DNA of 64,000 bases from Okeania sp. SIO2C9 (GTDB lineage Bacteria > Cyanobacteriota > Cyanobacteriia > Cyanobacteriales > Microcoleaceae), in contig NZ_JAAHGO010000012.1 in assembly GCF_010672455.1 (NCBI RefSeq), positions 116,698-180,697 of the forward strand, written 5' to 3'. Below are positions 17,286 through 57,574 of this stretch, piece by piece; position 1 is the first letter of the stretch, and the number at the start of each line of letters is the position of its first letter. The notes below the pieces were generated by a model that made no database searches, was not told where the DNA came from, and was given only the letters and a program-made list of their open reading frames with translations. The translations under genes and the position numbers were made by a program.

Positions 17286-18483
17286 TTATTGTTTATTATT
17301 TTGACTAATTATTTCGTAAGCATTTCCTAGGTCATGCTGCGCAAACAGCCGTCAGCTATTAGCTATTAAGCTATTAATTTTGGAGAAGGTAAAAGCAATT
17401 TAGAAATTGATAAAGAATAAAAAATTACCGAAAAATTGTGATTGAAAGCCTCCTCTTTTAAGAGGATAAAAAGCGGTCGTTTGCGCAGCATGACCTAGGA
17501 TGGGATGGCGAGGTCAAAGGAGCCATATCCAATCGACTCCTGTGAAGAAAAATTTTCATCTCTTTGTCAATCCTATCCGTTTTAAAGGAGAGGTAATTCT
17601 AAATTCGCGCATTCTAAATTCTAAATTATTGAATGCCAAAGCACCCTTCCTACACCTTAGAAGTAATTATTTATTCTTAATTGCTGTTAACGCAGTTCCT
17701 CCGGAGGAGGCTAGCTGACTGCTAATAGCTAAATGCTTACTATTTTTGTAGTTAATATATAGTTTAAAATAGTTTTTTTTGCTTAATCGGGTTCAAAATT
17801 TATCAGTTATAATTCTTTTACTAATTATTCCCTGAGCCATTGCATTTCTGCATTTAGCATTAATTTTGCTCGATTAAAAGCAGAATATTGATAGTAGTAT
17901 CGTGGCATATTCTCAGATTGTTGACTATCTAAATAGGGCTTGCTGATTAAATATAAAAGCATTTACATATAAATATTTTAGCCTTTTTGGAGTCGAAAAA
18001 ACTGCGCCTGTTTCAGTCTAAAACGCTCAAAAAGTTAGTATTTTAGGCAAGAGTTAGGCAGAACAATCAAGGGACAATTCTTACTTCTACCTCCTCGCTC
18101 ATTCCCATTTCTTCTGTCTCCTGTCTCCTGTCTGCTACCCTCACCCATAAGACTTTTTCAGTAAACCCTAAATATTTTTGATGTAGTTGACAAACTATTA
18201 AACGATGCTCGATAAGTTTGACTCGTCCAGTAGGTTCTAAATCACTGAAAAAGAAAAATTTAATCAGAAATTTAGAGCGACCTTTTACCGAATAATTAAA
18301 GTAAAAATCCTCTCCTTTAAAGGAGAAAAAGCGGTCGTTAGTTTAGCTTTCCGAAGGTTAGGATGGCGAGGTCTCGGAGCCATATCTGATCGATCAATAG
18401 AAGAAAAAAATTTTCCTTTTGCGTCAATCCTCTCCTTGAAAATAAGAGGTAATTGTTAATTATTAATTATTAATTATTAATTA
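17286..18483. other. Repeat-filled spacer
   Basis: Holds, in order, a family E element with the GC-rich module (17424-17605, from ATTACCGAAAAATTGTG to GGAGAGGTAATT), a family A element (17935-18169) and a second family E element (18285-18490). I see no convincing coding sequence; a short frame near 17500-17718 is composed of family E and flanking repeat sequence. Confidence 0.7.
17935..18169. mobile_element. Family A MITE-like element
   Basis: Ends AGGGCTTGCTGATTAAAT and TTTTTCAGTAAACCCT. Interior ATTTTAGCCTTTTTGGAGTC, AAGAGTTAGGCAGAACAATC and CTGTCTCCTGTCT. Flanked by TA on both sides (AAAT before, AAAT after). Confidence 0.82.
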
Positions 18484-18490
18484 TTAATTG
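18285..18490 (+). mobile_element. Family E element with GC-rich module
   Basis: Starts TTACCGAATAATTAAAG; first hairpin CTCTCCTTTAAAGGAGA; module AGCGGTCG...GGGATGGCGAGGTCTCGGAGC...; then TCAATCCTCTCCTTG and a TAATTAT heptamer block that ends inside the PadR-like gene, forming that gene's stop. Confidence 0.8.
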
Positions 18491-18681
18491 TTTAAGGCTT
18501 CCCCTAGTTCTTCTGTAACCACAAAAACATAACCCCGCTCTTCTAATCGTTTCAGCAAAGGATATATAGCACCATAATTGATGCTAATACAGCTACTCAT
18601 AAATAATTCTAACTGTTGCTTTAAACGATAGCCGTGCAGAGGTTTCTTTTGTAGTAAACCGAGGGCAGATAACTCAAGCAT
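18484..18681 (-). pseudogene. PadR-family transcriptional regulator, truncated at 3' end
   Basis: 65 residues remain of a family usually 100-180 residues long. MLELSALGLLQKKPLHGYRL followed by INYGAIYPLLKRLEERGYV is the PadR winged-helix N-terminus, complete through the recognition helix and start of the wing. The last residues NN and the TAA stop come from the heptamer block of a family E element, so insertion has removed the rest. A short PadR dimer is conceivable, but truncation is the simpler reading. Confidence 0.75.
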
Positions 18682-20148
18682 TTATATCAGTCTGATATAT
18701 TTGTTTATTTTTTAATTATATTTCAATTAATTTTATCTGACGAAATAAAAATTAAAAAATCTTCAAATTATATTCTATGCCCTGGGAGTTGGGTAAGGGA
18801 AGCATCGGATTTGCGGTGCATAGAAGTCATAAGTCAGAATGGTTGGGGGTAAGTTTAGATAAGTCCAGTGTTAACATCTTCCTTCTCTTTTATTGCGTAT
18901 GTCGCAATAATACAATGTAAGACAAATGTGTTTCAGGCGTTGGCTCAGAGACACAGAGCGATCGCCTATATCAGATATAAAACCCTTATGGAAGCTATTT
19001 AAAAATAGAGGTACAGAATTTTGTGAGGTAGTTCTATTTCAGCAAAGGCGGATACCTTATACCATCTCTCAAAAACTTTTCTACATTTTCTTGAGCTGGG
19101 GAGTAGGGGCAAACGACCGTTTGCCCCTACAGAACTTTATGAATATTGCTAATGGGGTTGGTGAGGCTGATATGAAATACTAAAATTTTGGCGACAAATA
19201 CCCACGGCTGTTTCCAGGGCTCAAGCAGCCAAAAGCACAGAGCGTGGGCTAATATTCCGTAAGGGTTTTATAAAGCTCCTAGTTAACATCTTCCTTCTCT
19301 TTTATTGCGTATGTCGCAATAATACAATGTAAGACAAATGTATTTCAGGCGTTGGCTCAGAGACATAGAGCGATCGCTGGTATCAGATATCAAACCCTTA
19401 TGGGAGCTATTTAGGGTTTGCTGTCTTTTTCAGGAGTAGGGGACCCACCCCTAACCCCTATCCCTTAACCATAAGTCTTGAAACCCTTGTGGGGAGCAGG
19501 GGAGCAGGGAGCAGGGGAGAAGGGATAAAAAATCGTAGTAGCTAAGTAAAACTACTGAAATAGTCAAAAAAAAAGTACTTTTCTATACATTTTTTTTTCC
19601 GAAAAAGCCGAGCCAATACTTATGCATAACTCGTCTATTTTGTCAAGCTTTATGTTAAGAAAGATGTGGGTAAAGCATAGCCCTAACCCCCAGGGTCAAT
19701 TTATTGTCACGCTTAGAAAAATTGGCGTTGGTGAAAAGAGGTATGATATCATGTCCGGATAAGAGTGCTATAGAACTCCGTTCCGCTTACGCGATCGTGC
19801 TGACGCAACGCTTCGCGTTAACCTGCGTTTTGCGCCAGCAAACAAAAAACTTTCTCTTTCTACTCTTCTTTCTTCTTCTTTCTTCTTCTTTCCTCCCTCC
19901 TGACTCCTGTCTCCTAAGTAATTAAGATTAATATCATACAGTAATTCACCAACGCCGAAAAATTGATGGGGAGATGGGGAGATGGGGAGATGGGGAGATT
20001 CTGAATATTTGCACAATTATAAATATTCTCTGACGACAAATAATTAGTCCTGCTCCCAGGAGAGAAAGAGGGAAATGGAGAGTAGTTAGGAGGAGCGGAG
20101 AATAGAATTTAATTAGGAGGTAGTCGGATATATTTATCCCTTAATTAT
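18682..20148. other. Spacer with a direct repeat and microsatellites
   Basis: Two ~127-bp copies of one sequence lie at 18871-18997 and 19283-19409 (TTAACATCTTCCTTCTC..., then ACAATGTAAGACAAATGT... CAGAGCGATCGC...), 412 bp apart. A B-related terminus (GATATCATGTCCGGATAAG) is at 19744, TTCTTCTTTC repeats at 19865-19895, and a GGGGAGAT run at 19968-20000. No supported gene; short open frames here are made of these repeats. Confidence 0.65.
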
Positions 20149-20652
20149 TGCTCTGCTGATTAAATCTAAAAGCATTGACATATAGAACCCATTTGGGATC
20201 TTCATAAATATCAAGTTTTTTTAGCCTTGAGTCAGGAGACAGGAGACAGGAGACAGGAGGCAAGAGGGAAGATGTGGGTTCGTGATAATACAAAAAATTC
20301 AACACACCAACAGAAGATTTTTCCTCAGAATTGATGCGCGAAAAGACTTGACTACCATAATTATATAGCGATCAAATGGGTTCTATCAAGACAAGTGCCT
20401 TTTTGGAATTGAAAAAAGTGCCTGTGCCTGGTTTTCAGCTCTTCATGGTCGTGCATGGAGCGTATTAATGGCAAGAGTTGGGCAGAAAAATCCCAAATTG
20501 ACAATTCTTACTCCTACCTCCTCGCTCCCAAGCCATTTCTCCCCTCCTGGGAGGGGCGCGCGGGTGGGTTGTCTCCTGTTTCCCCCTCCTGGGAGGGGCG
20601 CGCGAGTGGGTTGTCTCCTACCCCTACTACTCATACTTTTTCAGCAAACCCT
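20149..20652. mobile_element. Family A element split by a nested family C element
   Basis: Left part GCTGATTAAATCTAAAAGCA and right part TTTTTCAGCAAACCCT are family A. After GCATTGACAT the family A sequence stops, a family C element (20182-20386) follows, and family A sequence resumes as AAGTGCCTTTTTGGAATTGA. The copy also carries two GGGAGGGGCGCGCG blocks near 20550 and 20595. Confidence 0.8.
20182..20386. mobile_element. Family C MITE-like element nested in family A
   Basis: Terminal inverted repeats ATAGAACCCATTTG and CAAATGGGTTCTAT. Another full copy at 54288-54568, and a lone end at 60401-60415. Its interior includes GTCAGGAGACAGGAGACAGG runs. Confidence 0.8.
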
Positions 20653-20927
20653 AATTATTTTCTTGAGACGGGGAGTAGGGGAGTGAGGAAGTGGGGGAGA
20701 AGTAAAAATTAGAATAATTAATATTAACTAGCTAATAATTACCAAAAATGTCATTTGGCTTGTGTTAATTACTTAATAATTGAAGTGCTACTTAAGTTAA
20801 GCATTAATCCATGGTAATTGGTATCAGATATGAATCAAACTACCACTACTGCAAAAATAATGAAATACGCTATTGATATAGATATATACCCTTAACCTAA
20901 ATAAAAGGCCACCACTCAAGAATACTA

Positions 20928-22919: not shown

Positions 22920-23709
22920 GGTTTAATCTATAGCAGGGAATAGGGAATAGGAAATAGGCAACAGTGGGGAAAATATTTCCCTGTCTTACGGTTTATTATC
23001 AGCATAAGTCTTAATACCAATTCACTTTAAAGATGTCACAAATAGTTTCAAATTACATAAGTGAAATAATTTCCTGAAATTAATGTGGCATAAAAGTTTG
23101 GAGCCTATAAAATCTTACTTTTGAGTTTTGAGTTTTGATTTTTAACTTCCGTGAAAGGGTATAACCAACCTATTCTTTGCTATATAGCACTACGCAATTA
23201 GGGGGCGGACAATACTAAATGCTGAAAGTAAGTCAGAGATTACTTTTGAATTTTGTACGGGTACCATTCGGAACTTTGCGTTAGCAAATGGCAATTTGAC
23301 CCTACTGATTTTTAACTTACCGAATAATTAAGGTTTAAAGTCTATCCTTTAAAGGAGAAAAAAGAAAAAATTTTCACGCTCCACGTCTATCCTATCCGTT
23401 TTCAAAGAGAGTTTAATAATGGATAATTGATAATTACCTCTCCCTAAAACGGATAGGATTGAATAAAAGGAAAAAATTTATTCTTTTGGTCGATTGGATA
23501 TGGCGAGGTTTCCTCGCCATCCCACCCTTCGGGAAGCTGCGAAGATCGACCGCTGTCTTGGTTGATTGGATATGGCGAGGGGACCTCGCCATCCCTCAAC
23601 CGCTTTTTTCCCCTTTAAAGGGTCGGCTTTAAACCTGAATTATTTAATTATTTAATTATTAATTCTTCGGTAATTATTAATTATTAATTGTTAATTATTA
23701 ATTGTTAAA
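22920..23709. other. Repeat spacer with head-to-head family E elements
   Basis: From 23327 (TTACCGAATAATTAAGG) a module-free family E copy runs to ~23438, and an inverted copy with two tandem GC-rich modules (each with GGATATGGCGAGG and GACCGC or CAACCGC) runs to the CTTCGGTAA near 23675. TTAATTATTAATTG heptamers then run up to the stop of the M23 peptidase gene. The part before 23327 holds no recognisable gene. Confidence 0.7.
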
Positions 23710-25270: not shown

Positions 25271-26641
25271 TTATGTTGGTATTTCAATCACAAATTTCGC
25301 TCCTTTTTCAGGAGAAGAAATACATTTGATTCTGCCCTCATGTTGTTCAACAATAATTTGATAACTTATCGATAATCCTAAACCTGTGCCTTTACCAACT
25401 TCTTTAGTAGTAAAAAAGGGGTCAAAAATTTTATAACTATTTTCCTCTGTCATACCCAAACCATTATCAGAAATATAAATCCCTATCCAATTATTTTCTA
25501 ATTTTTTTGTTTTGATACGAATTGTTGGTTGTTCTTCTGTAAATTTATTTGGAGAAAATTTTGTTTCTAGTGCATCAATAGCATTATTGATAATATTCAT
25601 TATTGCTTGGTTGAATGCACTAGAATAACAATTCACTAGAGGTAATTCACCATAATCTTGAATCACTTTAATCTGAAACGGTAGATTTTGTAAACGAGCT
25701 TGAAAAATTAGTAAAATATTATCAATATCTTGATGAATATCTACATATTTTATTTCTGCTTCATCTAGGCGAGAAAAAGTTCGTAATGATTTGACAATGT
25801 TACTAATTCGATTTGATCCGCTTGCCATGGAACCTAATAGCTTGGGTAAATCTTCTTCAATATAATCTAATTCCATCTCTTCAATTTTTGCTTCAATTTC
25901 ATCTGGTAAATTTGAGGAATTTTTCTGAAAAAGGTGAACTAAATCTAATAAATCTTTTATATAGTCGTTAACATGATTTAAGTTACCCGAAATAAAGGTT
26001 ACAGGATTATTAATCTCGTGAGCAACTCCAGCAACCATTTGCCCCAAAGCAGACATTTTTTCAGCGTGAATGAGTTGAGTTTGAGTTTTTTTCAACTTTT
26101 CCAGAGTGTTTTGTAAGTAAATATTTTGCTGTTTTAAGGCTTTTTCAGCTAATTGACGCTCAATTTCAGCTGCAGACCGAGCTGCAAATATTTTTAAAAT
26201 AGATTCTTGTTGGGAATAATTGTATTTTAAAGGTTTAGTATGTAAGCCTGCAATATGACCAATATTTTTTCCATGACTATCTACAATAGCAATTCCTAAA
26301 TAACTTTCAGCTTGCAAAGTTAATAAGTCTTTATCTTCTGGGAAAAGCTGTTGAATTGAATTTGGATAAATTTGCAGACCTTTTTCATAAACAATACCAC
26401 AGGGAGTTCCGGTTAAATTATATTCAAAATTAGACCCAAAACAACCTCCTGTCCAAAAGGCTAAGATATTAGCTTTTGGCTGCTCGTTATCTACAAATTC
26501 TGCAATTAGTGCATATCTAACTTGCAACACTTGAGCCAGGTATTGAACACAAACCTGAAAAAATTCTTCGCCGATTTTAGATGCAATTCCTGCGACAATA
26601 AGTTTGAGATTATATTCCGATTCAAAATTATGATTTGTCAT
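25271..26641 (-). CDS. GAF-domain sensor histidine kinase (copy 1)
   Basis: 456 residues, no membrane span, so cytoplasmic. An N-terminal GAF-like domain (~10-150) is followed by a coiled linker (LKQQNIYLQNTLEKLKKTQT), the phosphoacceptor helix MVAGVAHEINNPVTFISGNL (His about residue 208), and the ATPase domain with NAIDALE (N box), ISDNGLGMTEE (G1) and GKGTGLGLSISYQ (G2). It autophosphorylates on His in response to an unknown signal; no response regulator is adjacent. The paralogue at 28274-29644 has the same length and arrangement, and both share upstream DNA, so they are a recent duplication. Confidence 0.92.
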   Translation of the reverse strand: MTNHNFESEYNLKLIVAGIASKIGEEFFQVCVQYLAQVLQVRYALIAEFVDNEQPKANILAFWTGGCFGSNFEYNLTGTPCGIVYEKGLQIYPNSIQQLFPEDKDLLTLQAESYLGIAIVDSHGKNIGHIAGLHTKPLKYNYSQQESILKIFAARSAAEIERQLAEKALKQQNIYLQNTLEKLKKTQTQLIHAEKMSALGQMVAGVAHEINNPVTFISGNLNHVNDYIKDLLDLVHLFQKNSSNLPDEIEAKIEEMELDYIEEDLPKLLGSMASGSNRISNIVKSLRTFSRLDEAEIKYVDIHQDIDNILLIFQARLQNLPFQIKVIQDYGELPLVNCYSSAFNQAIMNIINNAIDALETKFSPNKFTEEQPTIRIKTKKLENNWIGIYISDNGLGMTEENSYKIFDPFFTTKEVGKGTGLGLSISYQIIVEQHEGRIKCISSPEKGAKFVIEIPT

Positions 26642-27029: not shown

Positions 27030-27885
27030 AGTGCTATATGTAGTGTTTCAACCCTTAAAATGGAAAATTATGGCTCATTTTTGCTGAATAAATGTAGAGC
27101 TCTGAGTCATTTAGTCTCTAAGAATTTTCAGTAGTTTCTCTCAAAACGGGATTTCGGAGATTAACGCTAAATATAGAGAAGAAAAACTATAGTGCTATAT
27201 ATATGTGGTGTTTGAATCTCTAAAATCGAAAATCCTGACATCTTTTTACTCATTTGGCTCAATATAGAATTAGTCTATAGGCAAATATATGAGCCGATAT
27301 CCAGGAATTATAAGATTAACGCTAGATATAGAGAAGAAAAACTATAGTGCTATATATATGTAGTGTTTGAATCTCTAAAATCGAAAATCCTGACATCTTT
27401 TTACTCATTTGGCTCAATATAGAATTAGTCTATAGGCAAATATATGAGCTTATCTCCAGAAATTTCGAGATTAAAGCTAAATATAGAGAACAAAAACTAT
27501 AGTGCTATATATATGTAGTGTTTGAATGGTGAAAATCCAAAATCCTGACACATTTTTACTCATTTGGCTCAAATAGAATTAGTCTATAGGCAAATATATG
27601 AACTTATCCCCAGAAATTTCGAGATTAACGCTAAATATAGAGAACAAAAAATATAGTGCTATATATATGTAGTGTTTGAATGGTGAAAATCCAAAATCCT
27701 GACACATTTTTACTCATTTGGCTCAATATAGAATTAGTCTATAGGCAAATATATGAACTTATCCCCAGAAATTTCGAGATTAACGCTAAATATAGAGAAC
27801 AAAAACTATAGTGCTATATATATGTAGTGTTTTAGCGACTCAAATAGAAAATCCTCACTCTTTTTTGCTGAGTAAATTTAGAGGT
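27030..27885. repeat. ~155-bp tandem repeat array
   Basis: GCTAAATATAGAGAA (or GCTAGATATAGAGAA) occurs at 27166, 27321, 27476, 27630 and 27785, spacings 155, 155, 154, 155. Each unit has TATAGTGCTATATATATG, TAGTGTTTGAAT, an ACATTTTTACTCATTTGGC block and GAATTAGTCTATAGGCAAAT. No open frame persists. A related partial unit lies at 24650-24720. Confidence 0.93.
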
Positions 27886-27984
27886 CTGAGCAATTTACCG
27901 AAAAATTGGGTTTAAAGCCTCGCCCTTGTAGGGCGACTTTTTATTTGATTTGCAAGTGAATTGGATATATGCTAAACTGTTATT

Positions 27985-28134
27985 AGTTGCCGGGGGGCAC
28001 TCGGAAACTCTAAACGGACGTGGAGGGAAGCATCAGACTACCGCCAAGGAAGCAGCACCCTGTGAAGCGTCAACCCGCCGAAGAGCTACGGCTAAGTAGG
28101 AATCCCCGCGCCTTTAGGCCGGGGAGGATGTCAA
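27985..28134. mobile_element. Orphan right end of an IS200/IS605-type element (possible omega-RNA relic)
   Basis: A GC-rich island in AT-rich DNA ending in AGGAATCCCCGCGCCT...GGCCGGGGAGGATGTCAA. The hairpin CCCCGCGCC/GGCCGGGG followed by GGATGTCAA matches the right ends of IS605/TnpB elements, where the transposase cuts after TCAA and where the TnpB guide (omega) RNA ends. No tnpA or tnpB remains nearby. Identification rests on this 3' hairpin and terminal TCAA; I did not compare it with a database. Confidence 0.6.
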
Positions 28135-28273: not shown

Positions 28274-29644
28274 TCAAGTTGGTATTTCAATAACAAATTC
28301 CGCTCCTTTTTCAGCAGAAGAAATGCATTTTATTCTCCCTTCATGTTGTTCAACAATAATTTGATAACTGATTGATAGTCCTAAACCTGTGCCTTGACTG
28401 ACTGGTTTAGTTGTAAAAAAGGGGTCGAATATTTTAGAGCAATTTTCCTCTGTTATACCTAAACCATTATCAGAAATATAAATCCCGAGCCAATCATTTT
28501 CTAATTTTTCTGTTCTGATAGAAATTTTTGGTTGTTCTTCTCCAAATTTATTCTGAGAAAATTTTATTTCTAGCGCATCAATAGCATTATTCATAATGTT
28601 CATTATTGCTTGCTTTAATGCATTAGGATAACAATTAACTAGAGGTAGATCGCCATAATCTTGAATGACTGTAATATGAAACAATGGATTTTGTAAACGG
28701 GATTGAATAATTAGTAAGATACTGTCAATAATTACATGAATATCTACAGGTATTACTTTTGCTCTATCTAAGCGGGAGAAAACTTGCAATGATTTAACAA
28801 TTTTACTAATACGGTTTGCCCCTCCTTCCATTGAATCTAATAACTTGGGTAAATCTTCCTCAATATAATCCAATTCAATTTCTTTAATTTTGTTTGTAAC
28901 TTCATCAGGTAAATTTGAATAATTTTGATGCAAAATATTAGCTAAATCTAATAAATCTTTCGTATAGTCATCAATGTGATTTAAATTACCCACAATAAAG
29001 GTTACAGGATTATTAATCTCATGAGCAACTCCGGCAACCATTTCTCCCAAACTAGACATTTTTTCTGCCTGAATAAGTTGAGCTTGAGTTTTTTTCAATT
29101 TTTCCAGAGTTTCTTGTAAATAAGTATTTTGTTGTTTTAAAGCTTTTTCAGCTAATTGACGCTCAATTTCAGCTGCAGAGCGAGCGGCAAATATTTTTAA
29201 GATAGATGTTTGTTGTTCATCATTGTGTTTTAAAGGTTTAGTATCTAAGCCTGCAATATGACCGATATTTTTTCCATGACTATCTACAATAGAAATCCCT
29301 AAATAACTTTCAGCTTGCAAAGTTAATAAATCTTGATCTTCTGGGAAAAGTTGTTGAATTGAATCGTGATAAATTTGCAGACCTGTTTCATAAACGTTAC
29401 TACAGGGAGTTCCTTCTAGATAGTATTGAAAGTTAGGTATAAATCTGTCTCCTGACCAAAAAGCTAATACCCTAACTTCTGGTCGATCGCTGTCTAGACA
29501 TTCTGTAATAAATCCATATTTTATTTGCAAAACTTGAGCCAGATATTGAGCACAAGCCTGAAAAAATTCTTCACCAATTTTAGATGCAATTCCTGCAACA
29601 ATAAGTTTGAGATTATATTCCGACTCAAAATCATGATTTTTCAT
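28274..29644 (-). CDS. GAF-domain sensor histidine kinase (copy 2)
   Basis: 456 residues, the paralogue of 25271-26641. H box MVAGVAHEINNPVTFIVGNL, N box NAIDALE, G1 ISDNGLGITEE, and F/G2 DPFFTTKPVSQGTGLGLSI. The main differences are in the GAF part (residues 35-75), so the two copies may respond to different ligands. In the pocket region, copy 2 reads GFITECLDSDRP where copy 1 reads ALIAEFVDNEQP. The duplicated block runs about 25150-26850 and 28160-29860, offset 3003 bp. ATG at 29642-29644. Confidence 0.92.
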   Translation of the reverse strand: MKNHDFESEYNLKLIVAGIASKIGEEFFQACAQYLAQVLQIKYGFITECLDSDRPEVRVLAFWSGDRFIPNFQYYLEGTPCSNVYETGLQIYHDSIQQLFPEDQDLLTLQAESYLGISIVDSHGKNIGHIAGLDTKPLKHNDEQQTSILKIFAARSAAEIERQLAEKALKQQNTYLQETLEKLKKTQAQLIQAEKMSSLGEMVAGVAHEINNPVTFIVGNLNHIDDYTKDLLDLANILHQNYSNLPDEVTNKIKEIELDYIEEDLPKLLDSMEGGANRISKIVKSLQVFSRLDRAKVIPVDIHVIIDSILLIIQSRLQNPLFHITVIQDYGDLPLVNCYPNALKQAIMNIMNNAIDALEIKFSQNKFGEEQPKISIRTEKLENDWLGIYISDNGLGITEENCSKIFDPFFTTKPVSQGTGLGLSISYQIIVEQHEGRIKCISSAEKGAEFVIEIPT

Positions 29645-30901: not shown

Positions 30902-31051
30902 AGTTTAATAATTAATAATTAATAATTAATAATTAATAATTAATAATTAATAATTACCTATCCTTGAAAGTGGATAGGATTGACTAAAAGGAAAAAATTT
31001 TCTTGTTTCTCCTTTAATGGAGAGGCTTTTTACCTTAGTTATTCGGTAATA
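30902..31051 (-). mobile_element. Family E element, module-free, seven heptamers
   Basis: Reading inverted: AATAATT repeated about seven times, then TACCTATCCTTGAAAG (hairpin), GGATTGACTAAAAGGAAA, TTTCTCCTTTAATGGAGA and finally TTATTCGGTAA. This copy has the longest clean heptamer block in the window and lacks the GC-rich module. Confidence 0.85.
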
Positions 31052-31813: not shown

Positions 31814-32147
31814 GAAGGAAGAAGGAAGAAGGAAGAGGGAAGAGGGAAGAAGTAATATTATGTCTGGTTAAATACTTATAAATAACTACGGAGGAGTCAG
31901 GATTCAGGAGAGAAAAAGAAGGAATAAGGAAGAATAAAATAACCAAAAAAATTGTACAGTAAATTCTAAATTAATGTTGTATAGTTAACGGGATAAATAT
32001 TTTTTGTTTGTTCCCTATCCTGCTCCTTATCTTACCGAATAATTAGGGTTTAAAGCCTCTTCTTTAAAGTAGAAACAAGCGGTCGAGGGATGGCGAAGTC
32101 CCCTCACCATATCCAATAGACCAAGAGAGAAAAAATTTTCCTTTTAG

Positions 32148-32328
32148 TGGTACTTAGACATTTTTTGATAGGAAAAATGCGTCAAAGTCAGTCTAGACAA
32201 GGGAATTACGTTAAAGCCTGAAAAATGGCTAGAACCCGTGCTTATTCAGGATTTATGCCTTTTTGACGTGAAAGCCTCTGCCCATCTATAATTTGAGTCT
32301 ATTTTATGTTTATTTTGTGTAAGTCCCA
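32148..32328. mobile_element. 181-bp insertion inside a family E element, with 4-bp target duplication
   Basis: Terminal inverted repeats TGGTACTTAGACA and TGTGTAAGTCCCA (two mismatches). TTAG flanks both sides (32144-32147 and 32329-32332). Removing the element and one TTAG restores the family E word CCTTTTAGTCAATCC seen uninterrupted in other copies. A related end is at 29992. Confidence 0.85.
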
Positions 32329-32363
32329 TTAGTCAATCCTCTCCTTGAAAAGAAGATATAATT

Positions 32364-32608
32364 AGGGCTTGCTGATTAAATCTAAAAGTATTTACAGATA
32401 AAGGTTTTAGCCTTTTTGATGCCTTGAAAAAGTGTCTGGTTTTCAGCTCTTCACGCTCAAAAAGGAGCGTATTTTAGGCTCATAGTTGGGCAGAAAAATC
32501 AAGGGACAAAACTTAGCTCCTACCTCCTCTAAATTCCCTTTTCTCATGTCTCCTGTCTCCTATCTCCTGTCTCCTACCCTCACCCATAAGACTTTTTCAG
32601 CAAACCCT
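32364..32608. mobile_element. Family A MITE-like element
   Basis: Ends AGGGCTTGCTGATTAAATC and TTTTTCAGCAAACCCT; flanked by ATT before and AATT after. The interior has TTTTAGCCTTTTTGATGCC and AGTTGGGCAGAAAAATCAAG, like the other copies. Confidence 0.83.
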
Positions 32609-32698
32609 AATTATTAATTATTAATTATTAATTATTAATTGTTAAACTATTCCTACAATTGTTCAATCCTTAAATAGTTAAATAGTTAAAAATATACT

Positions 32699-33883: not shown

Positions 33884-34011
33884 GTCATTTCAGTTATCAG
33901 TTATCAGTTATCAGTTATCAGTACCTCTGCAATAAGGAGGCAAGAAAATACGGAATTCTCTTTTTTTTCCCTTAAAAGGGGGAGCTTTAGACCACGATTT
34001 TTGGGTTAAAT
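33884..34011 (+). repeat. Direct repeat flanking xisH-xisI-uma2 (left copy)
   Basis: TCATTTCAGTTATCAG, here with four TTATCAG units, then TACCTCTGCAATAAGGAGG, TACGGAATTCTC and a CCCTTAAAAGGGGG block. The matching right copy is at 35485-35592 in the same orientation. Its distal part is related to the TTACCGAA end of family E. Confidence 0.8.
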
Positions 34012-35427: not shown

Positions 35428-35484
35428 CCTGGATTTAATTTATTCATCTAAGCATTCAGCGGTTAGCTATCAGCTATTAGCTAA

Positions 35485-35592
35485 TCATTTCAGTTATCAG
35501 TACCTCTGTAATAAGGAGGCTTGAAATACGGAATTATCTTTTTTTTATGCCTTTAAAAGGGGAGGCACATACCCATAATTTATCGGTAAGAT
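35485..35592 (+). repeat. Direct repeat flanking xisH-xisI-uma2 (right copy)
   Basis: TCATTTCAGTTATCAGTACC, TAATAAGGAGGC, TACGGAATTATC and CCTTTAAAAGGGGAGGC, matching 33884-34011. The two copies bracket the three-gene cassette. Confidence 0.8.
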
Positions 35593-35639: not shown

Positions 35640-36664
35640 TTACAGACTTGGTTTGAGATAAAACCATTTCATAATTGTTGGACGTCCTTCTGATAATAGT
35701 CGTCTGCGATCGAGTAATCCGTAATCTTGTAATTCCTCATAACAGTAAGAACAATTTGCTTTGATAACATGGCTTATACTTTCAATAACAGTGATCGAAT
35801 GAGTATCAGAAAAGAATTTTCGCAATGTAGAGGAAATACTAGGATCAATAAAATCATGTATTTCAATTAATAAATCAAAGTTCGCGAAGAAGGAAACATC
35901 TTGTTGTGTAAATAGTTGTTTTTCATAGCCCTCACAATCACTAATAATCAGAGCTTTTTTTGTAAATGGAATACTTTTAAGGGTATTGATATCACAGAAA
36001 GATCCAGTAATTACTCTATCAGCTACATTGTTAATTTGAGCCATTTGTCTACATAAATCTATTGCTTGACCTTTTATATCATATGCAAAGACTCTAGCAG
36101 TAGGTATTCGCATTGCTAAACCAACTGCATAATATCCTTCTGCACACCCTATATCAACTATTTCACTATAATCCGTGTTACCGAAGAATTAATAATTCAA
36201 TAATTCAATAATTCAATAATTCAGGTAAAAATCCTCCCCTTTCAAGGGGAAAAAAATAAATTTTTTCCTTTTATTCAATCCTATCCGTTTTTAGGGAGAG
36301 GTAATTATCAATTATCAATTATCAATTATCAATTATCAATTATCAATTATTGAAATATTTTGCCTATAATCTGATGAAGTTCTGATTCATATGAACCTAC
36401 AATTTTAGGGATTAAAGCACTACCAACTGATTTCTGGTCAGGATATTTCATCCCTTTAAAAGGACCGTGTTTAACGATTAAATCAGGAGATATTGATAAA
36501 ACTTTATCTTTATGATTAACAACCTGTTTACAGTTTGGTTCTTGTAAAATAATCCTTTCAGACTTAATAAATTCCGAAGCCCTAACTACAGTATTATAAA
36601 GTATTCTCCAACCAATATCATTTTGGAGAATTTGGGAAACAATCTTTTTGAAAAAAAATTTCAT
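35640..36664 (-). pseudogene. FkbM/SAM-dependent methyltransferase gene split by a family E element
   Basis: The 5' part (36347-36664) encodes MKFFFKKIVSQILQNDIGWR through ELHQIIGKIF, then hits a stop inside the element. The 3' part (35640 to ~36177) resumes TDYSEIVDIGCAEGYYAVGL (SAM-binding motif I) and continues through VFAYDIKGQAIDLC, ISDCEGYEKQL and IEIHDF to the end. Together they form a methyltransferase of ~285 residues. The frame is consistent with a clean insertion if two boundary bases belong to the gene. Native role unknown, probably glycan or small-molecule methylation. As it stands it cannot make the whole enzyme. Confidence 0.88.
36178..36346 (+). mobile_element. Family E element inserted in the methyltransferase gene
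   Basis: Runs from TTACCGAAGAATTAAT, three AATTCAAT units, hairpin CTCCCCTTTCAAGGGGA, then TTCAATCCTATCCGTTTTTA and AGGGAGAGGTAATT, to repeated ATCAATT units ending AATTATTG. It lacks the GC-rich module. Because it lies inside a coding sequence, its two ends can be placed closely, which defines the element's limits for the other copies. Confidence 0.88.
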
Positions 36665-38839: not shown

Positions 38840-39679
38840 TGAGCGATCGCCTCCTTTTCAACATCATAAATAATTAAGGGAATTTGGTTACGATGAATTA
38901 CAGTTTGAATAAATGGATACTTGAAAAACCGCTTATAAATATCTAAAGGAACTGCTAAATAAAATCGTCTTTCTGCTTCTTGTTCTTCCAAAGCAATACG
39001 ATAATTTATGAATTTTCCAATCGCAGTGTGAACTCATAAATTGTTGAAGCTGCCAAAAAAGTTTTAATTTCAACAGCAATTTTTTCACCATTTTTTGTTG
39101 CAGCAATTAACTTTTCTGCACCTAAATCTATATAAAAATCAACAAATCCTAAATCAATACGATAGGGGTCTTCAATAATTAATAATTAATAATTAATAAT
39201 TAATAATTACCTCTTCTTTTCAAGGAGAGGATTGACTAAAAGGAAATTTTTTTCTTGTTTCTCCTTTAAAGGAGAGCCTTCAAGCCTTAATTATTCGGTG
39301 AGTAATTATCCAACCCTGATTCTCAAGAGCAGTTCTAAAATTAATAATTAATAATTAATAATTACCTCTCCTTGAAAAGAAGAGGATTGACTAAAAGGAA
39401 ATTTTTTTCTTGTTTCTCCTTTAAAGGAGAGCCTTCAAGCCTTAATTATTCGGTGAGTAATTATCCAACCCTGATTCTCAAGAGCAGTTCTAAAATTAAT
39501 AATTAATAATTAATAATTACCTCTCCTTGAAAAGAAGAGGATTGACTAAAAGGAAATTTTTTTCTTGTTTCTCCTTTAAAGGAGAGCCTTCAAGCCTTAA
39601 TTATTCGGTGAGTAATTATCCAACCCTGATTCTCAAGAGCAGTTCTAACAAGCTGATGAAAAATATCTTTTGCAGGCAT
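38827..39679 (-). pseudogene. xisH: xisH pseudogene, disrupted by a triplicated family E insertion and a frameshift
   Basis: Starts ATG at 39677-39679 (MPAKDIFHQLVRTALENQGW then IIT), where a family E element enters. After three tandem copies, coding sequence resumes EDPYRIDLGFVDFYIDLGAE through IAVEIKTFLAAST, then a one-base deletion in TTTCACAC (here TTCACAC, near 39035) shifts the frame. In the third frame it continues NYRIALEEQEAERRFYLAVP to AIAQWIN and stop. Restoring these two lesions gives a full XisH. Confidence 0.92.
39176..39650 (-). repeat. Tandem triplication of a family E element plus 38 bp of xisH
   Basis: AGTAATTATCCAACC recurs at 39301, 39456 and 39611, spacing 155 bp. Each unit is a ~117-bp module-free family E element and the same ~38-bp stretch of xisH. 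The insertion therefore came first and the block was then duplicated twice. The three copies are nearly identical. Confidence 0.93.
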
Positions 39680-46000: not shown

Positions 46001-46636
46001 TTATTCCAAAATTCCCACAAGCACATCAACCAAAGCCTCCACATCCCCAGGAACTCTCAAAGAATCAATATTTTGCTGAATTAAACGTTGTTTTTTATCC
46101 AAAATACCAAATATCCAAAGTTCGCCCATAGTCACACAACCAAAAATTAAATCCTGTTCCGGTTCCCATTCAGATAATGCAATTAACTCCACAGCTAACT
46201 GCGTAAAACCTCGCGTCATATCCTCATGTTTTGCTTCAATTACTAACAGTTGAGAATTAGATTGTAGCAAGTAATCAAGATTACCCTTTAACCTTTCATT
46301 CACACTCAAAGGATATTCAATTCTGAGCTGACATTGACAGTACCGAGCAACCTCTAAGAGGTTGTCTGAGAAGTCCCTTATGCTACATCACTCGCCCCCT
46401 AAATCCCCCAAAATTGGGGGACTTTTACCAGCTAATAGATTCTTGTTCCCCCCATAATTGGGGCGCTAGGGGGGCAAAATTCAGTATTAAACAACTTTTC
46501 AAACATCCTCTATTCGCTGACGTAACTCTGGCAAACGTTCCAGTTGGCGATTTGAAGTAGGTAAAGACAATTTTGTTCTTTGGAAACTGTAGTTAAATTC
46601 AGCTAAAATATCGTCAATTTCATAAGTCAACTTCAT
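46001..46636 (-). pseudogene. Nuclease-like gene interrupted by a 150-bp element
   Basis: The 5' part starts ATG at 46634-46636 (MKLTYEIDDILAEFNYSFQR ... LPELRQRIE) and the 3' part resumes VARYCQCQLRIEYPLSVNER, then LLVIEAKHEDMTRGFTQLAV through to GDVEALVDVLVGILE. Excising 46357-46506 plus one CCTCTA joins RQRIE to VARYC in frame, giving 159 residues. The IEAKHED stretch suggests a PD-(D/E)xK-like fold. A short product from the internal ATG at 46309 is possible. Confidence 0.88.
46357..46506. mobile_element. 150-bp insertion with CCTCTA target duplication
   Basis: CCTCTA lies on both sides (46351-46356 and 46507-46512). Left end AGAGGTTGTCTGAGAAGT, right end ACTTTTCAAACAT, which are inverted relatives (GTTGTCTGAGAAG / GATGTTTGAAAAG). 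The interior holds CCCCAAAATTGGGG-type palindromes. Non-coding, so mobilised in trans if at all. Confidence 0.88.
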
Positions 46637-46790
46637 AATGGATAATGGATAATTGATAATGGATAATTACTTCTCCCTTTTAGGGAGAGGATTGACTAAA
46701 AGGAAAAAAATTATTTTCTCTTGGTCGAGGGGAGGCTTTTAACCTCAATTATTTAATTATTAATTATTCGATAATAATCAACCACATTAA
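46637..46790 (-). mobile_element. Family E element
   Basis: Inverted: AATGGATAATGGATAATT units, TACTTCTCCCTTTTAGGGAG hairpin, GGATTGACTAAAAGGAAA, then CTCAATTATTTAATTATTAA and TTATTCG. It begins right at the start codon of the broken nuclease-like gene, so it may have displaced that gene's promoter. Confidence 0.8.
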
Positions 46791-48275: not shown

Positions 48276-48282
48276 AGAAATA

Positions 48283-52013: not shown

Positions 52014-52143
52014 AATATACACTTACTGGCTAATAATAGCTATTAACATCATTGAATCTTACTAATTACTAAATCATTGAAGTTTTGCATAAGTATAGAA
52101 TTCTTTTTGAGGAGTGCGTTAACGAAGTCAGAAGTCAGAAGTT

Positions 52144-52282
52144 ATATCAAATCCGGTAGCATCGGTGTTATTCAGTCTTTAAAGATAAGAGTCTATACTG
52201 TAGGGGCGAATGGCCATTCGCCCTTACCGATTGTATGACTATCAACAGAATTATATTACTCCGAAGCCAACGGATTTGATAT
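52144..52282. mobile_element. Family B MITE-like element, complete copy
   Basis: ATATCAAATCCGGTAGCATC to GAAGCCAACGGATTTGATAT, 139 bp. It contains GGGGCGAATGGCCATTCGCCC-type palindrome halves. It serves as the reference for the copies at 14192 and 15154. Confidence 0.87.
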
Positions 52283-52875: not shown

Positions 52876-53778
52876 TCAAGCTACAGATTCAGATTGAACT
52901 GTTACTCTTTCCACTTCTAAACAAACTTGCTCTACTGTCGGAGTAAAACCCAGGAATAGCTGCACCTTTTTTGCAAATTCTTCTGGGTTACCACTGACAT
53001 AGAAGTTAGTACAGTGTGGAGGGTGATCGCTTAATATCCCCAAACGTTGAAGTTCCCGAGCAGCAGTGCTAACAACAGCAATGGCAGGGTCTACTATCTG
53101 TACTGAATTGCCTAAAATTTGTCTAAATAGATGAAGTAGATGGGGATAGTGGGTACAACCTAAGATCAGGGTATCTATCTGTTGTGCAATTAGGGGTTTC
53201 AGATATTGTTGCACTACTTCAAAAGTATACACATCATTAATGCGGCCTTGTTCAATTAATGGTACTAAAGCAGGTGCTCCTACTTGAAATACTAAAACTG
53301 AAGGATCTAATTTAAGAATAGTATTTAGATAAGCATTGCTGTTGACTGTCTGTCGAGTGGCGATGACACCTATTTTTTTGTTCCCTCTGTTGACAACTGT
53401 ATTTGCACCAGGTTCAATCATACCAATAATGGGAAAATTGTATTCAACTGCTACTCGATCTATTGCTGCAGCAGTAGCAGTATTGCAGGCAACGATCGCC
53501 ATTTTTACGCCTTGATTTTGCATCCATGTTAGCACTTGCCGTACAAATAGTACGATTTCTTCCTGAGATTTTGTACCATAGGGGAGTCGTGCTGTATCAG
53601 CAAAATATATAAAGGTCTCTCTGGAGAGTTGGCGATATGATTCTTTTAAGACACCAATTCCACCCACACCACTATCAAAGATGCCAATTGGATTTCTCTG
53701 TAGTTGTCTAGATTGAGTTTGCCCTAGGTAAGAGGTAATATATTTACCCTTATTAAATTGATAAAAAATATTTGTCAT
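52876..53778 (-). CDS. murI: Glutamate racemase
   Basis: 300 residues from ATG at 53776-53778; a TTG 14 codons upstream is unlikely. NPIGIFDSGVGGIGVLKESY (Asp-Ser of the active site), IYFADTARLPYGTKS, VACNTATAAAID (first catalytic Cys) and LGCTHYPHLLHLF (second catalytic Cys) identify it. It interconverts L- and D-glutamate for peptidoglycan. The N-terminus has ~30 extra residues (NIFYQFNKGKYITSYLGQTQ) before the core, so a start at a later codon is possible. No neighbours in the same pathway. Confidence 0.96.
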   Translation of the reverse strand: MTNIFYQFNKGKYITSYLGQTQSRQLQRNPIGIFDSGVGGIGVLKESYRQLSRETFIYFADTARLPYGTKSQEEIVLFVRQVLTWMQNQGVKMAIVACNTATAAAIDRVAVEYNFPIIGMIEPGANTVVNRGNKKIGVIATRQTVNSNAYLNTILKLDPSVLVFQVGAPALVPLIEQGRINDVYTFEVVQQYLKPLIAQQIDTLILGCTHYPHLLHLFRQILGNSVQIVDPAIAVVSTAARELQRLGILSDHPPHCTNFYVSGNPEEFAKKVQLFLGFTPTVEQVCLEVERVTVQSESVA

Positions 53779-54112
53779 CGTTACAATAGAATTGACAAAA
53801 AATAGTAGGTTTGGAGCCAAACCTTGCTAAATAGGAATAAATTAGGGTTAGCATCTATGATTTGCTGCTGACCCTTTACCTTTAAGCACTATAGTGTTGA
53901 TCGAAACCGGATTTAGTATGAATCTTAAATCTAATTATTGAAATTACTCGTCCTGGTCAAAAGTTGTTTTTTTAAAGTCACAAGTCAATTTAGAGGTATT
54001 TCTCATGGAAAACACTAGGGCAAAAATTTTACTTATGGTAATAGACAGGTAGGTTAGGACTTATGCTGATGATGATCCGAATGTTTTTCCTGCTGTTCCC
54101 AGATCCGGTTTC

Positions 54113-54280
54113 ATATCAAATCCGGTTGAATACTTATTATATACTGGGGAGTAGGGGAGTAGGGGACTGGGGGAGTGGGGGAGTGGGGGAGTGGGTCCGA
54201 TTAAATATTGAAGTAATTTAAGAAGGTATAAACAGATATTATATAACCAGATTCTATGTGCAATTAACCGGATTTGATAT
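54113..54280. mobile_element. Family B MITE-like element
   Basis: ATATCAAATCCGGTTGAATA to TTAACCGGATTTGATAT. The interior is dominated by GGGGAGTAGGGGAGTAGG and GGGAGTGGGGGAGTGG runs. Confidence 0.82.
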
Positions 54281-54287
54281 CACTACT

Positions 54288-54568
54288 ATAGAACCCATTT
54301 GATAGCTATCTATTTATATAGTTAAAGATAGGGAGATGGGAAAATGGGGAGATGGGAATATTTTTTTACCTGCTTGGTGCGCGTTTCCTTCTCTTGGTCG
54401 GCGTTCCCATGGGGAGGAAACCGTTCCCTACGGGACGCTTCGCGAACGCCGGGTCGCATCCGTTTTTTCCCCTATTCTCGTTCCTGAATTTCCTGACTTG
54501 ACCAGGACTGAATTCTGAGTTCTATGCCAAAAGCACATACCGCGTGCAAAGATATCAAATGGGTTCTA
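54288..54568. mobile_element. Family C MITE-like element containing family D sequence
   Basis: ATAGAACCCATTTGATAG to ATATCAAATGGGTTCTA. Family D sequence in inverted orientation (CCTGCTTGGTGCGCG ... GGGTCGCATCCG) occupies its middle, a second case of nesting. Confidence 0.8.
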
Positions 54569-54599
54569 CTGAGAAGTATTTGATTTAGTTCTTTCAACA

Positions 54600-54801
54600 A
54601 TTAATAATGAATAATGAATAATGAATAATTACCTCTCCATGAATTGAAGAGGATTGACAAATTCATGAAAATTTTTCTTCACAGGAGTCGATTGGATATG
54701 GCTCCGAGACCTCGCCATCCCACCCTACGGGAAGCTCCGAAGATCGACCGCTTATTATCCCCTATCCAAGGGGAGGCGCATACCCACAATTTTTCGGTAA
54801 A
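54600..54801 (-). mobile_element. Family E element with GC-rich module
   Basis: Inverted: AATAATGAATAATGAATAATT heptamer-like units (variant), TACCTCTCCATGAATTGAAG, then TCGATTGGATATGGCTCCGA ... GAAGATCGACCGC (module bounded by TCGA.../...TCGACC), CCCCTATCCAAGGGGAGG and ACAATTTTTCGGTAAA. Confidence 0.82.
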
Positions 54802-55181
54802 TAAGGAATTTTACTCTATTTTATGAATTAAGTAATTCTAAGGCATTTTATTAATAATCAATATTCTTTAGCTAATAATTTTGATTGATATTCACAGATG
54901 TCTAATACTTTTTTATTTAAAATTGCTATTAATGGTTTTAAGTTATCATCTATAAATATTTTTTTATGCATAATTATATAGAGATAAATCGCCCAAGATA
55001 ATTTGATAAAAATTCAGAGAAAGATTATTTTTAGGTAAAGAAAAGGTTAAGTATATGATGAAAACTATAAAGAAATTTATAGATTTTATATGTTAGTTTA
55101 GTATAAATACTTAAGTTGAAGTAAAATGGAAAAATAAATAGTTGATAATTGTTGTAAAATATGTTTATATTTTTCTTTGGT

Positions 55182-55420
55182 GAATTCAAGAATATTGGCA
55201 ATTAACTCTTCAACAAATAGGCAAAGGTATATTTGATTGGAATATCAAGAAAAAGGAAATATTTTATTCCACAAACAGAAAAGCAATTTATCGGACCTTC
55301 TGACAAATAAATTTTCCACTTAGTTTTAAGGTTATAGAGGTCAGTAATGCTAAACAGGTTTGGGAGTAAACTCAGGTTATTCATCCTCAATTAGTAATGC
55401 TTTGATTGAATTAAATTAAA
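55182..55420 (+). pseudogene. Degenerate PAS-domain remnant
   Basis: On the + strand, QQIGKGIFDWNIKKKEIFYS in one frame looks like the GIWDWD-type PAS core and is followed by NRKAIYRTF and a stop; further on VWE, stop, TQVIHPQL resembles the later EW-x-x-RVHPDD segment. Several stops break it. Probably the relic of a sensor domain, perhaps once fused to the kinase that follows at 55577. Confidence 0.45.
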
Positions 55421-55576
55421 TTGATTCAAAAAATTTTGGTATCATAAGACCATCAATATTTATCAGTTATTACGTCATCTGGAACTGTATTTGAAGTCGT
55501 TCGGTATCTTAGCTAAAAAGATTTAAGAACAAATTACTCAAACTTTACAATAGTCATTAATTATTCTTTATTACCT

Positions 55577-56965
55577 ATGTTTCCTTACTTAAATAACCAT
55601 CTTGATTTAGGTTCCACTGTAAAAGATTTACAACTTCATAGTATCCGGGTTGAAATTGATACATCAGGAGTTAGATTAGCTAAAGTTTTTGAAGAAAATC
55701 CCCTACTTCCAGGTATTATTTTAACAAAATCTGGTAAATTCATTGGTATGGTTTCTCAACAGCAATTTCTCAAAACGTTGAGTCGCCAATATGGAAGAGA
55801 AATTTTTTTAAATCGTTCCGTTAAGGTCTTATACGACTTTATTAAGTATGAATTATTAATCTTCCCAGGAGATACACCTATTGTAGATGCTGCTGATAAA
55901 GCAGTAAAGAGACCTCAAGAATTTATTTATGAACCAGTTGTTATAGAAAACTCTCCAGAAGATTATCAAGTTTTAGAAACTCAAAAGTTACTTATTGCTC
56001 AATCTTATATTCATCAACTTGCTAAAGATTTATTACAGAAACAAACTCAAGCACAACTAATTCAAACTGAGAAACTTGTAATGTTAGGACAAATGGTGAC
56101 AGGTTTAGCCCACGAACTGAGAAATCCAATTAATTGTGTGGCAGGTAATTCTAAGTTTATGTCTGGTTATTATCAAGACTTTCTTAAGTTGATTAATACT
56201 TATGAGAAAAATATTCCTGAACCAATAAAAGAAGTTGAAGATTTAAAAGAAGATATTGATTTTGAATTTGTCAAACAAGATTACTTGGAGATGATGAATA
56301 GTATAGAAATTTCGGCTGACCGGATGATGCAACTGGTTAGTAGTCTCCGCAATTTTTGTCACATGGAAGGTACTAAACGCAAAGAAACAAATATTAATGA
56401 ATGTTTAGATGGTACTCTATTAATTTTAAAGAATCGTTGGAAGATTAGTGGAGTTGAAATTATTAAAAATTATGGGGATTTACCGTTGATTTTGTGTCAT
56501 TCTGGTCAAGTTAGTCAAGTGTTTATGAATTTGATTACGAATGCTCTTGATGCTCTAGAAGAGTATCAAGAAAAAGAAACTGATAGTAGACCAGGTAAAA
56601 TATGGATTCATACTAAAGTTAAAGATTTATCTGAAAATACAGATCAAAATGTGGATAAATCTGCTAATGAGGTAGAATTAAATCCTAATAATGAGATGAA
56701 AGGTAATGTAATTTCTACTGAAGATACTAAAGCAATTTATGGTTGGCTCTCAATTCGTATCGTTGATAATGGTCCTGGTATTGCCTACGAAATTCAAAAG
56801 CAAATTTTTGATAGATTTTTTACTACAAAAGCTGTAGGTAAAGGTACTGGTTTAGGACTGGCAATTAGTTATCAAATTGTTGTTGACAACCATCAGGGAA
56901 ATTTACATATTAACTCAACTCCTGGAGTAGGAACTGAATTTGAAATATTGTTGCCTATCAAGTAA
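55577..56965 (+). CDS. Sensor histidine kinase with CBS-like N-terminus
   Basis: 462 residues, cytoplasmic. The N-terminal ~140 residues (FEENPLLPGIILTKSGKFIG, MVSQQQFLKTLSRQYGREIF) resemble a CBS-type ligand domain. A helix leads to the H box GQMVTGLAHELRNPINCVAG, then N box NALDALEE, G1 VDNGPGIAYE, F box DRFFTTKAVGKGTGLGLAIS. A Gln/Asn-rich insert of ~45 residues (DQNVDKSANEVELNPNNEMK) lies inside the ATPase domain. It phosphorylates an unlinked regulator. Same architecture class as the two kinases at 25-30 kb but not a close copy. Confidence 0.9.
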   Translation: MFPYLNNHLDLGSTVKDLQLHSIRVEIDTSGVRLAKVFEENPLLPGIILTKSGKFIGMVSQQQFLKTLSRQYGREIFLNRSVKVLYDFIKYELLIFPGDTPIVDAADKAVKRPQEFIYEPVVIENSPEDYQVLETQKLLIAQSYIHQLAKDLLQKQTQAQLIQTEKLVMLGQMVTGLAHELRNPINCVAGNSKFMSGYYQDFLKLINTYEKNIPEPIKEVEDLKEDIDFEFVKQDYLEMMNSIEISADRMMQLVSSLRNFCHMEGTKRKETNINECLDGTLLILKNRWKISGVEIIKNYGDLPLILCHSGQVSQVFMNLITNALDALEEYQEKETDSRPGKIWIHTKVKDLSENTDQNVDKSANEVELNPNNEMKGNVISTEDTKAIYGWLSIRIVDNGPGIAYEIQKQIFDRFFTTKAVGKGTGLGLAISYQIVVDNHQGNLHINSTPGVGTEFEILLPIK

Positions 56966-57574
56966 AATTAATGAGGCTAATTAGCTGTTTTTTATTTAGC
57001 AAAAAATTTAAACGTATCTCAAGAGCGATCGCTCAAAATTATCTTTATTCCCTATTCTCTCCATACCTTTTTTATAGCACTTGGTCTCCACATCTCAGAT
57101 AAAAGCGCTATATAGCAATCAGGAATCAGATGTGAGAATTGAGGTGTATAGAATATAACAGTTGTCTTATTCTTATGTATTCGTTTTTTTCTTCTTCCCT
57201 GTTGCCTGTTCCCAGCTCCGGTGTTCCCTGTTCCCCAAAAGTCTCCAATATCTCACAACTAAAATCATATTGCTATACATCATTTTCAGTCTAAATAATT
57301 TTTATCATAAAACTTTTAGTTGCACTTCAGATATTTCTTTTACCGAATAATTAAGGTAAAAATCCTCTCCTTTATAAGGATAAACAAGCAGTCGTTAGCG
57401 GAGCTTCCCGTAGGGTGGGATGGCGAGGTCTCGGAGCCATATCCAATCGACCAAGAGAGAAAAAATTTTCATAATTACTCAATCCTCTTCTTTTCAAGGA
57501 GAGGTAATAATTAATTATTAATTATTAATTATTAATAATTAATTGTTGAAAGTATGGTTAGTGCAACTCAATTA
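56966..57574. other. Spacer with a family E element
   Basis: Contains a HIP1 site at 57025 and a family E copy with module at 57342-57546 (TTACCGAATAATTAAGG to TTAATTGTTGAA). Short frames at 57162 and 57320 lie in low-complexity or element sequence. Confidence 0.65.

Follow-up and report, generated by a model that had tools for sequence, protein, structure and literature searches.

Family E is a short dispersed element of Okeania sp. SIO2C9 and is very probably a single-strand transposon of IS200/IS605 type that is non-autonomous and resembles the palindrome-associated transposable elements (PATEs) of Haloquadratum. It was analysed in a 64-kb stretch, hereafter the window (G000:C24:116698-180697), of a 10.88 Mb draft genome in 317 contigs. 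The element starts with CGAA directly 3' of the tetranucleotide TTAC (TCAC at one locus) and ends in TGAA, and a hairpin lies near each end with a guide-like tetranucleotide 5' of it, mostly AAAG on the left and CAAT on the right. The exact ends, the presence of TTAC in the empty site, the lack of a duplication, the conserved hairpins and the guide-like tetranucleotides at the positions that they hold in IS608 were observed directly. This is the anatomy of IS608 (IS200/IS605), and E is therefore considered a PATE-like non-autonomous element. The initial annotation had matched the repeat to no named family; it does belong to a known kind, the IS200/IS605-derived PATE-like elements.

Empty sites and insertion

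The flanks of every called copy were compared with the fetched DNA of other genomes. Clean empty sites were found at seven loci in sister genomes, as the initial annotation had expected, including five in the window (36178, 57340, 52494, 54800 and the array at 39301-39611), an insertion at L115 that is empty in G000 (L142) and an insertion at L184 that is empty in L135. At these junctions the left flank with its TTAC (TCAC for the array) is followed at once by the right flank that otherwise stands after TGAA, and the flank alignments overlap by 0-11 bases, without a gap and with no bases gained. Because of these junctions TTAC is assigned to the target, the element is taken to run from CGAA to TGAA, and nothing is duplicated. 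The suggestion that the copies have fixed common ends and no coding capacity is borne out, while the first four bases of the shared end as previously drawn, TTAC, are target and not element. The tails at verified insertions comprise 5, 6 or 7 heptamer units. An eighth locus, L165, is empty in both the window and G003, with a 13-base clean junction on the left and, upstream of it, a second difference of ~127 bases. Other flank comparisons were unclean or uninformative: the gaps around 17425 are larger, 32032 has an unrelated tract of 27 bases, the sites at 31049 are occupied, and further matches fall within other dispersed repeats.

Two clean gene interruptions had been proposed, and one is confirmed: the copy at 36178 splits a reading frame that G003 and G004 keep open for 294 codons. 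For 39301, 57340 and 54800, the relative examined has no frame of at least 80 codons across the empty site.

The junctions also bear on the possibility that E is a classical miniature inverted-repeat transposable element (MITE) moved by a DDE transposase, in which case TTACCGAATAATT and the heptamers would serve as imperfect terminal inverted repeats. AATAATT-like sequence does occur at both ends, oppositely oriented, and in some copies heptamers are present on either side; however, no target duplication occurs at the seven clean empty sites, and TTAC is already present in the empty site. Without terminal inverted repeats and target duplication, a DDE-type MITE was rejected as extremely improbable.

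Copies and distribution

A relaxed finder for three parts (left end, left guide/hairpin start and right hairpin) identified 16 copies of family E in the window, whereas none was called in any of 20 first-order Markov sequences of window length. The plus-strand copies were called at 17425, 18285, 23317, 32032, 36178, 52494 and 57340, and the minus-strand copies at 23673, 24853, 31049, 35589, 39301/39456/39611, 46774 and 54800. At least fifteen dispersed copies had been claimed, and all the E loci listed for them are real, although 24745, 30902, 46637 and 54600 are the right ends of minus-strand copies, and the 'partial' at 27893 is no E copy: it is a mini IS605 of 236 bp that has a similar left end and another right end. 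Uninterrupted complete copies in the window span about 115-260 bases, below transposase-coding length. The copies and their relatives in the window are as follows (the slash marks the junction in an empty site):

17429..17633, plus strand: E copy, B-like left end, module about 17473-17538, variant units ATTCTAA, end TTGAA
18289..18495, plus strand: E copy, A type, module, right end TTTAA instead of TTGAA
23321..23414, plus strand: E copy, A type, degenerate right end, head to head with the 23412..23669 copy; end approximate
23412..23669, minus strand: E copy, heptamers on the left side too, module twice, right end TTAAA
24735..24849, minus strand: E copy, B type, guide TGCG, without module, end TTGAA
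27899..28134, plus strand: mini IS605 at TTAC, related but different, with E-like left end, right guide GAAT and end TCAA
30904..31045, minus strand: E copy, A type, 7 units, right end TTAAA; G001 (6 units) and G002 also occupied
32036..32646, plus strand: E copy, module, foreign sequence between the halves and inside the tail; end approximate
33884..34004, minus strand: copy of sibling family F, similar left hairpin, TGATAAC (TAACTGA) heptamers, end TGAC, right guide CTTG; ends putative
35484..35585, minus strand: E/F mosaic, E-type left end at TTAC, F-type right end with guide CAAG and end TGAT
36182..36354, plus strand: E copy, A type, heptamers on both sides, 7 right units; empty site TTAC/ATATTT in G003 and G004
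39171..39607, minus strand: 155-bp tandem triplication, three E copies at TCAC, guide GAAG; empty site TCAC/GACCCC in G003
46632..46770, minus strand: E copy, target TTAT, left heptamers, end TGAA
52498..52628, plus strand: E copy, B type, guide TGCG; empty site TTAC/CCTGT in G003
54593..54796, minus strand: E copy, B type, module; empty site TTAC/AGAGC in G003, one base changed beside the junction
57344..57550, plus strand: E copy, A type, module, 6 units; empty site TTAC/AGTATG in G003, G004 occupied

The window is rich in E, since 16 copies in 64 kb compare with 45 finder calls in the 580 kb of the same contig beyond it. A covariance model built from eight module-free window copies gave at least 150 full-length matches genome-wide, window copies included. 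An exact 58-base right-end pattern occurred in nine stretches, all in Okeania contigs, in a scan of one genome per species that possibly leaves the records of the window's own genome outside. In a search of 39 genomes (E 1e-6, with the best 106 candidates per genome scored), five Okeania genomes had at least 106 matches each, and three genomes from two other genera of the same family had 102 to 106 among the best 106 candidates scored; the remainder comprised four genomes with a single weak match and 27 with none. No match was obtained in a plasmid search. No description of such elements in Okeania was found in the literature, a weak test that was partly obscured by papers on plants and on MITEs in general.

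Ends, hairpins and heptamers

Two types of copy were distinguished. In type A, the left end reads TTAC/CGAATAATTAAGGTTTAAAG (the slash again marking the junction), followed by the hairpin TCTCCTTTAAAGGAGA and an A/T-rich centre, and the right end reads TCAAT, the hairpin CCTCTTC..GGAGAGG, TA and (ATTATTA)n ATTGTTGAA. Type B has TTAC/CGAAAAATTGTGGTTTAAAG, the hairpin TCCCCTTTTAAGGGGA and (ATTATTC)n. Both ends thus carry a near-terminal imperfect palindrome, without terminal inverted repeats. The consistency of this layout was assessed over 192 distinct copies from all fetched DNA, from which exact flank duplicates were removed and in which orthologues in sister genomes were counted separately. 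Of the 192 copies, 166 have TTAC as the quartet preceding the element, 141 have AAAG as left guide and 173 have CAAT as right guide. Heptamers could be phased in 156 copies and not in the other 36; among the phased copies the end is TGAA in 113, with 2 to 9 units, and over all 156 the array after the right hairpin holds 1 to 9 units. Unit number also differs between orthologues, as in the copy at 31049 (7 units here, 6 in G001). The variable heptamer number noted earlier therefore stands, while its position is corrected: the array lies inside the element, before TGAA, and is not outermost.

Hairpin pairing is conserved. Across 58 sequences, 93.4% of cells form standard pairs, compared with 52-69% when the columns are slid by 1-3, and 37 cells are changed on both sides; at columns 29/40, U-A occurs in 31 sequences and C-G in 27. 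Three of five measures in the structure count exceed all 500 shuffles. In the array at 39171-39611, where the 155-bp repeat unit spans flank plus E copy, copies differ from one another by an exact inversion of the right hairpin (CCTCTCCTTGAAAAGAAGAGG versus CCTCTTCTTTTCAAGGAGAGG); over the 192 copies, the common form of this hairpin occurs 53 times and the inverted form 7 times.

Stable hairpins, variable unit number and the tandem triplication at 39171-39607 would also suit a repeat acting as a structured RNA, either regulatory or non-coding, whose spread is due to recombination or slippage and whose mobility is incidental. Against this stand the exact recurrent insertion at TTAC in unrelated flanks and the empty-site junctions, which argue against recombination as the main route, and we consider such a repeat very unlikely. 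Rfam gave no match in the window at gathering scores, so that a known RNA family is rejected.

For the PATE-like transposon, we infer an enzyme, a single-stranded intermediate, an action of the guides and a tether role for the array. The enzyme would be a Y1 (HUH) transposase, TnpA, that acts in trans by binding the end hairpins in single-stranded DNA. Guides in the DNA would direct its cuts: the left one, usually AAAG, by pairing with the target TTAC, which remains part of the left flank, and CAAT on the right by pairing with the terminal TGAA. The excised circle would then join 3' of another TTAC, without target duplication. The heptamer array may serve as a tolerated, slippage-prone tether from the right hairpin to the cleavage site; in the IS605 right ends that were read, six bases lie between hairpin and cut.

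Guides and possible natural retargeting

In IS608, the target and left cleavage site is TTAC, the right cleavage site is TCAA, and the left and right guides are AAAG and GAAT; both guides lie 5' of the hairpins, insertion is 3' of TTAC, and the reported pairs include A16:T-3 and A17:T-4 (PMC5934647). If AAAG starts at +16, as we read it, guide base 1 would pair with base -3 of the cleavage site. The left guide of E is identical to the AAAG of IS608. At the right end, CAAT/TGAA in E compares with GAAT/TCAA in IS608, which amounts to G to C and C to G at the pair of guide base 1 and base -3; the mini IS605 at 27899-28134 retains GAAT and TCAA.

Natural variation of this pair was surveyed in five genomes with a pattern that leaves base -3 free, which gave 24 places with the guide GAAG or CAAG. 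Nine of the 24 were fetched, and the C24 array and the G004 orthologue provided four more; loci were collapsed by hand, with TTAC places left uncollapsed. GAAG loci, so collapsed, had TCAC (3), TTAC (2) or TGAC (2) as target, and CAAG loci had TGAC (3, two of them sibling family F) or TTAC (9). Among 90 uncollapsed AAAG copies in the same frame, TCAC occurred 0 times and TGAC 4 times, and one AAAG copy outside that frame is at TCAC (L041). The association of GAAG with TCAC (3/7 loci versus 0/90) has a Fisher p of 2e-4, with small numbers and uncollapsed AAAG copies, and that of CAAG with TGAC (3/12 versus 4/90) has p 0.03, with two of the three in family F. These patterns support, without proving, natural retargeting via the guides, and support is as far as they go because the numbers are small and exceptions occur.

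A further pair on the left, between guide base 4 and target base -1, was considered and dropped: AAAT guides were at TTAC in 8 of 11 cases, at TTAT in 2 and at TGAC in 1. GGTA, the complement of TACC, stands just upstream in 28 of the 29 copies with TGCG, AAAT or TGTG guides, compared with 5 of the 141 AAAG copies. It is possible that GGTA acts as an alternative left guide for TACC, an idea that goes no further because few lineages are involved.

Possible source of the transposase

A transposase acting in trans had been suggested, and this was the right target of the search. In sister genomes, tnpA genes with an E-like left end were found at L273 (G001) and L274 (G003). The L274 element is complete: TTAC/CAGAAAATTGGGTTTAAAG is followed by a hairpin, tnpA lies on the opposite strand, tnpB is present, and the right end is GTAGGAAT-hairpin-AGGATGTCAA (GAAT...TCAA); the left end of L274 is nearly the same as that of E. 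Its TnpA matches Pfam Y1_Tnp PF01797 (1.9e-35) and the ISHp608 transposase PDB 2a6m (7.4e-17), and its TnpB matches OrfB_IS605 and a Cas12f1-like TNB domain. The window's own genome, in which no intact cognate enzyme was found, contains 20 Y1 TnpA matches, a few intact and several with stops. At least 150 TnpB matches were found there, so tnpB far outnumbers tnpA. E as a simple deletion derivative of an L274-type IS605 was rejected, as the right ends differ (GAAT...TCAA versus CAAT...TGAA).

A Y1-type enzyme and end hairpins would also be expected of repetitive extragenic palindromic (REP) or REPIN-like repeats moved by a REP-associated tyrosine transposase (RAYT, TnpA_REP). Two Y1 genes that we take to be RAYT-like (L064 and L067) were counted for this alternative, the E-like left end appearing at their loci only as loose matches. 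However, the empty-site junctions and guide positions follow IS608, and the tnpA with the left end of E belongs to a tnpA-tnpB element. GTAG/CGTC tags, a feature of REP/RAYT systems (PMC3733652), were not seen by eye at E ends, no dedicated search having been made. A REP/RAYT origin is accordingly judged very improbable.

Several observations weigh against the reading of E as an IS200/IS605-type, PATE-like transposon. None of the 20 Y1 matches in this genome stands beside an E-like left end, save for separate nearby E copies or minis, no intact L274-type TnpA is among them, and no tnpA element with the right end CAAT...TGAA was found in the Y1 loci examined. In addition, the GAAG places at TGAC and at TTAC, two of each, are contrary to a simple pairing rule, and the guides TGCG, TGTG and AAAT (29/192) are mostly at TTAC despite poor IS608-style pairing. 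Further, the counts of double-change pairs and of pair types were reached by 95 and 121 of the 500 shuffles, respectively. Strain-specific insertions have been reported in Haloquadratum although its IS200-type genes are mostly broken, which is a similar state (PMC3119063).

The GC-rich module, family F and TAACTGA arrays

An optional GC-rich module, present twice in one copy, had been described in E, and it is indeed carried by 6 of the 16 window copies (17425, 18285, 23673, 32032, 54800 and 57340), one of them with two. The module, CGGTCG...GGGATGGCGAGG...CCATATCCAATCGACC, has both halves at 53 places in the fetched DNA, 21 within called E copies and the other 32 elsewhere. Visual inspection puts nearly all of these 32 in the corresponding slot of sibling families, with a left hairpin before and AAGAGAA-like sequence after; a few (e.g. 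L140:14579) have no clear left half. Since the slot is the same in sibling families, the module is better described as a shared superfamily insert, sometimes in tandem, than as a feature of E. An independently mobile module is unsupported, nearly all outside places being in the sibling slot. In IS608, a second hairpin 3' of the left palindrome restricts extended target pairing (PMC5934647), and by analogy the module could act in a similar manner.

Of 31 places of sibling family F, 12 show CAAG 5' of the right hairpin, and in 7 of these 12 TGAAATGAC follows the array (ends putative). TAACTGA direct repeats have been reported in Beggiatoaceae, Cyanobacteria and Bacteroidetes, with means of transfer described as not evident (MacGregor 2015, PMC4679880). 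In Okeania, such arrays can be family F tails, as at 33884-34004. Among 16 TAACTGA arrays of at least three units in the fetched part of C24 and the window, an E-like left hairpin lies 30-160 bases upstream in 10, and TGAAATGAC follows 6. A perfect 5-bp hairpin abuts 2 of the 16, a rate not above that at random places (191 of 2000), compared with 12 of the 21 E-type arrays with a full end. Four genomes out of 145 in the class carry an exact TAACTGA triple, counting the present one. In the other three, the cyanobacterial genomes G132, G142 and G163, 12 arrays were read, of which one (L248) has an E-like left hairpin and 11 have no such context; with one in 12 arrays of other genomes so placed, TAACTGA arrays as a general signature are unproven, and the link between family F and these repeats may be taken as a lead.

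Other repeats in the window

The mini IS605 at 27899-28134 is 236 bp long, its interior stretch resembles the 3' end of a tnpB element, and it has at least 40 matches in this genome at 83-100% identity. A further repeat family, at about 17935-18175 and about 32366-32605, is marked by TGTCTCC heptamers and by long inverted ends (AGGGCTTGCTGA / TCAGCAAACCCT-like); one of its copies seemingly lies nested inside the E copy 32036-32646. Two minus-strand frames of 456 aa each, 25271-26641 and 28274-29644, may be a duplicated gene, and a 155-bp tandem repeat at 27151-27866 sits between them.

Comparison with known systems and implications

E resembles IS608 (ISHp608) in insertion 3' of TTAC without duplication, in subterminal hairpins and in the placement of its guides, AAAG 5' of the left hairpin and the right guide 5' of the right one. 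Unlike IS608, E codes for nothing, has CAAT/TGAA for GAAT/TCAA and carries a variable heptamer array between the right hairpin and the cut. The mini IS605 at 27899-28134 shares the target and a similar left end with E, whereas it keeps GAAT...TCAA and a tnpB-like stretch and is without heptamers. The PATEs of Haloquadratum are likewise transposase-free, with near-terminal palindromes, no inverted ends and no duplication, and they reach high copy numbers, are heterogeneous outside the palindrome and outnumber transposons (PMC3119063). PATEs are archaeal, however, and a heptamer tail, guide analysis and module slot are absent from the available part of their description (PMC3119063). E is therefore an IS200/IS605-derived PATE-like element, unmatched to a described family in the searches made, which departs from these relatives in its heptamer tether and swapped right guide pair.

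The reported TAACTGA repeats (PMC4679880) have a counterpart in Okeania in family F, which ends in TGATAAC/TAACTGA arrays. A wider reading would assign E to a superfamily with a slippage-prone heptamer tether at the right end and guides that drift and retarget naturally (AAAG/TTAC, GAAG/TCAC and CAAG/TGAC on the left; GAAT/TCAA, CAAT/TGAA and CAAG/TGAC on the right), its tails being a source of at least part of the TAATTAT- and TAACTGA-type arrays in filamentous cyanobacteria and perhaps Beggiatoaceae. Taken jointly, these propositions are tentative and, in our view, rather doubtful.

Target choice by guide pairing in IS608 has been reprogrammed in the laboratory (PMC5934647), and the many natural copies of E, which vary in guide and cleavage site, make it possible to compare retargeting, the spacing at the right end and alternative guides. 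With the heptamer tails, a mobile origin becomes available for repeats that are reported to have spread in an unexplained way (PMC4679880). For the organism itself, family E represents a large and recently moving share of the big Okeania genomes, with at least one gene interrupted here.

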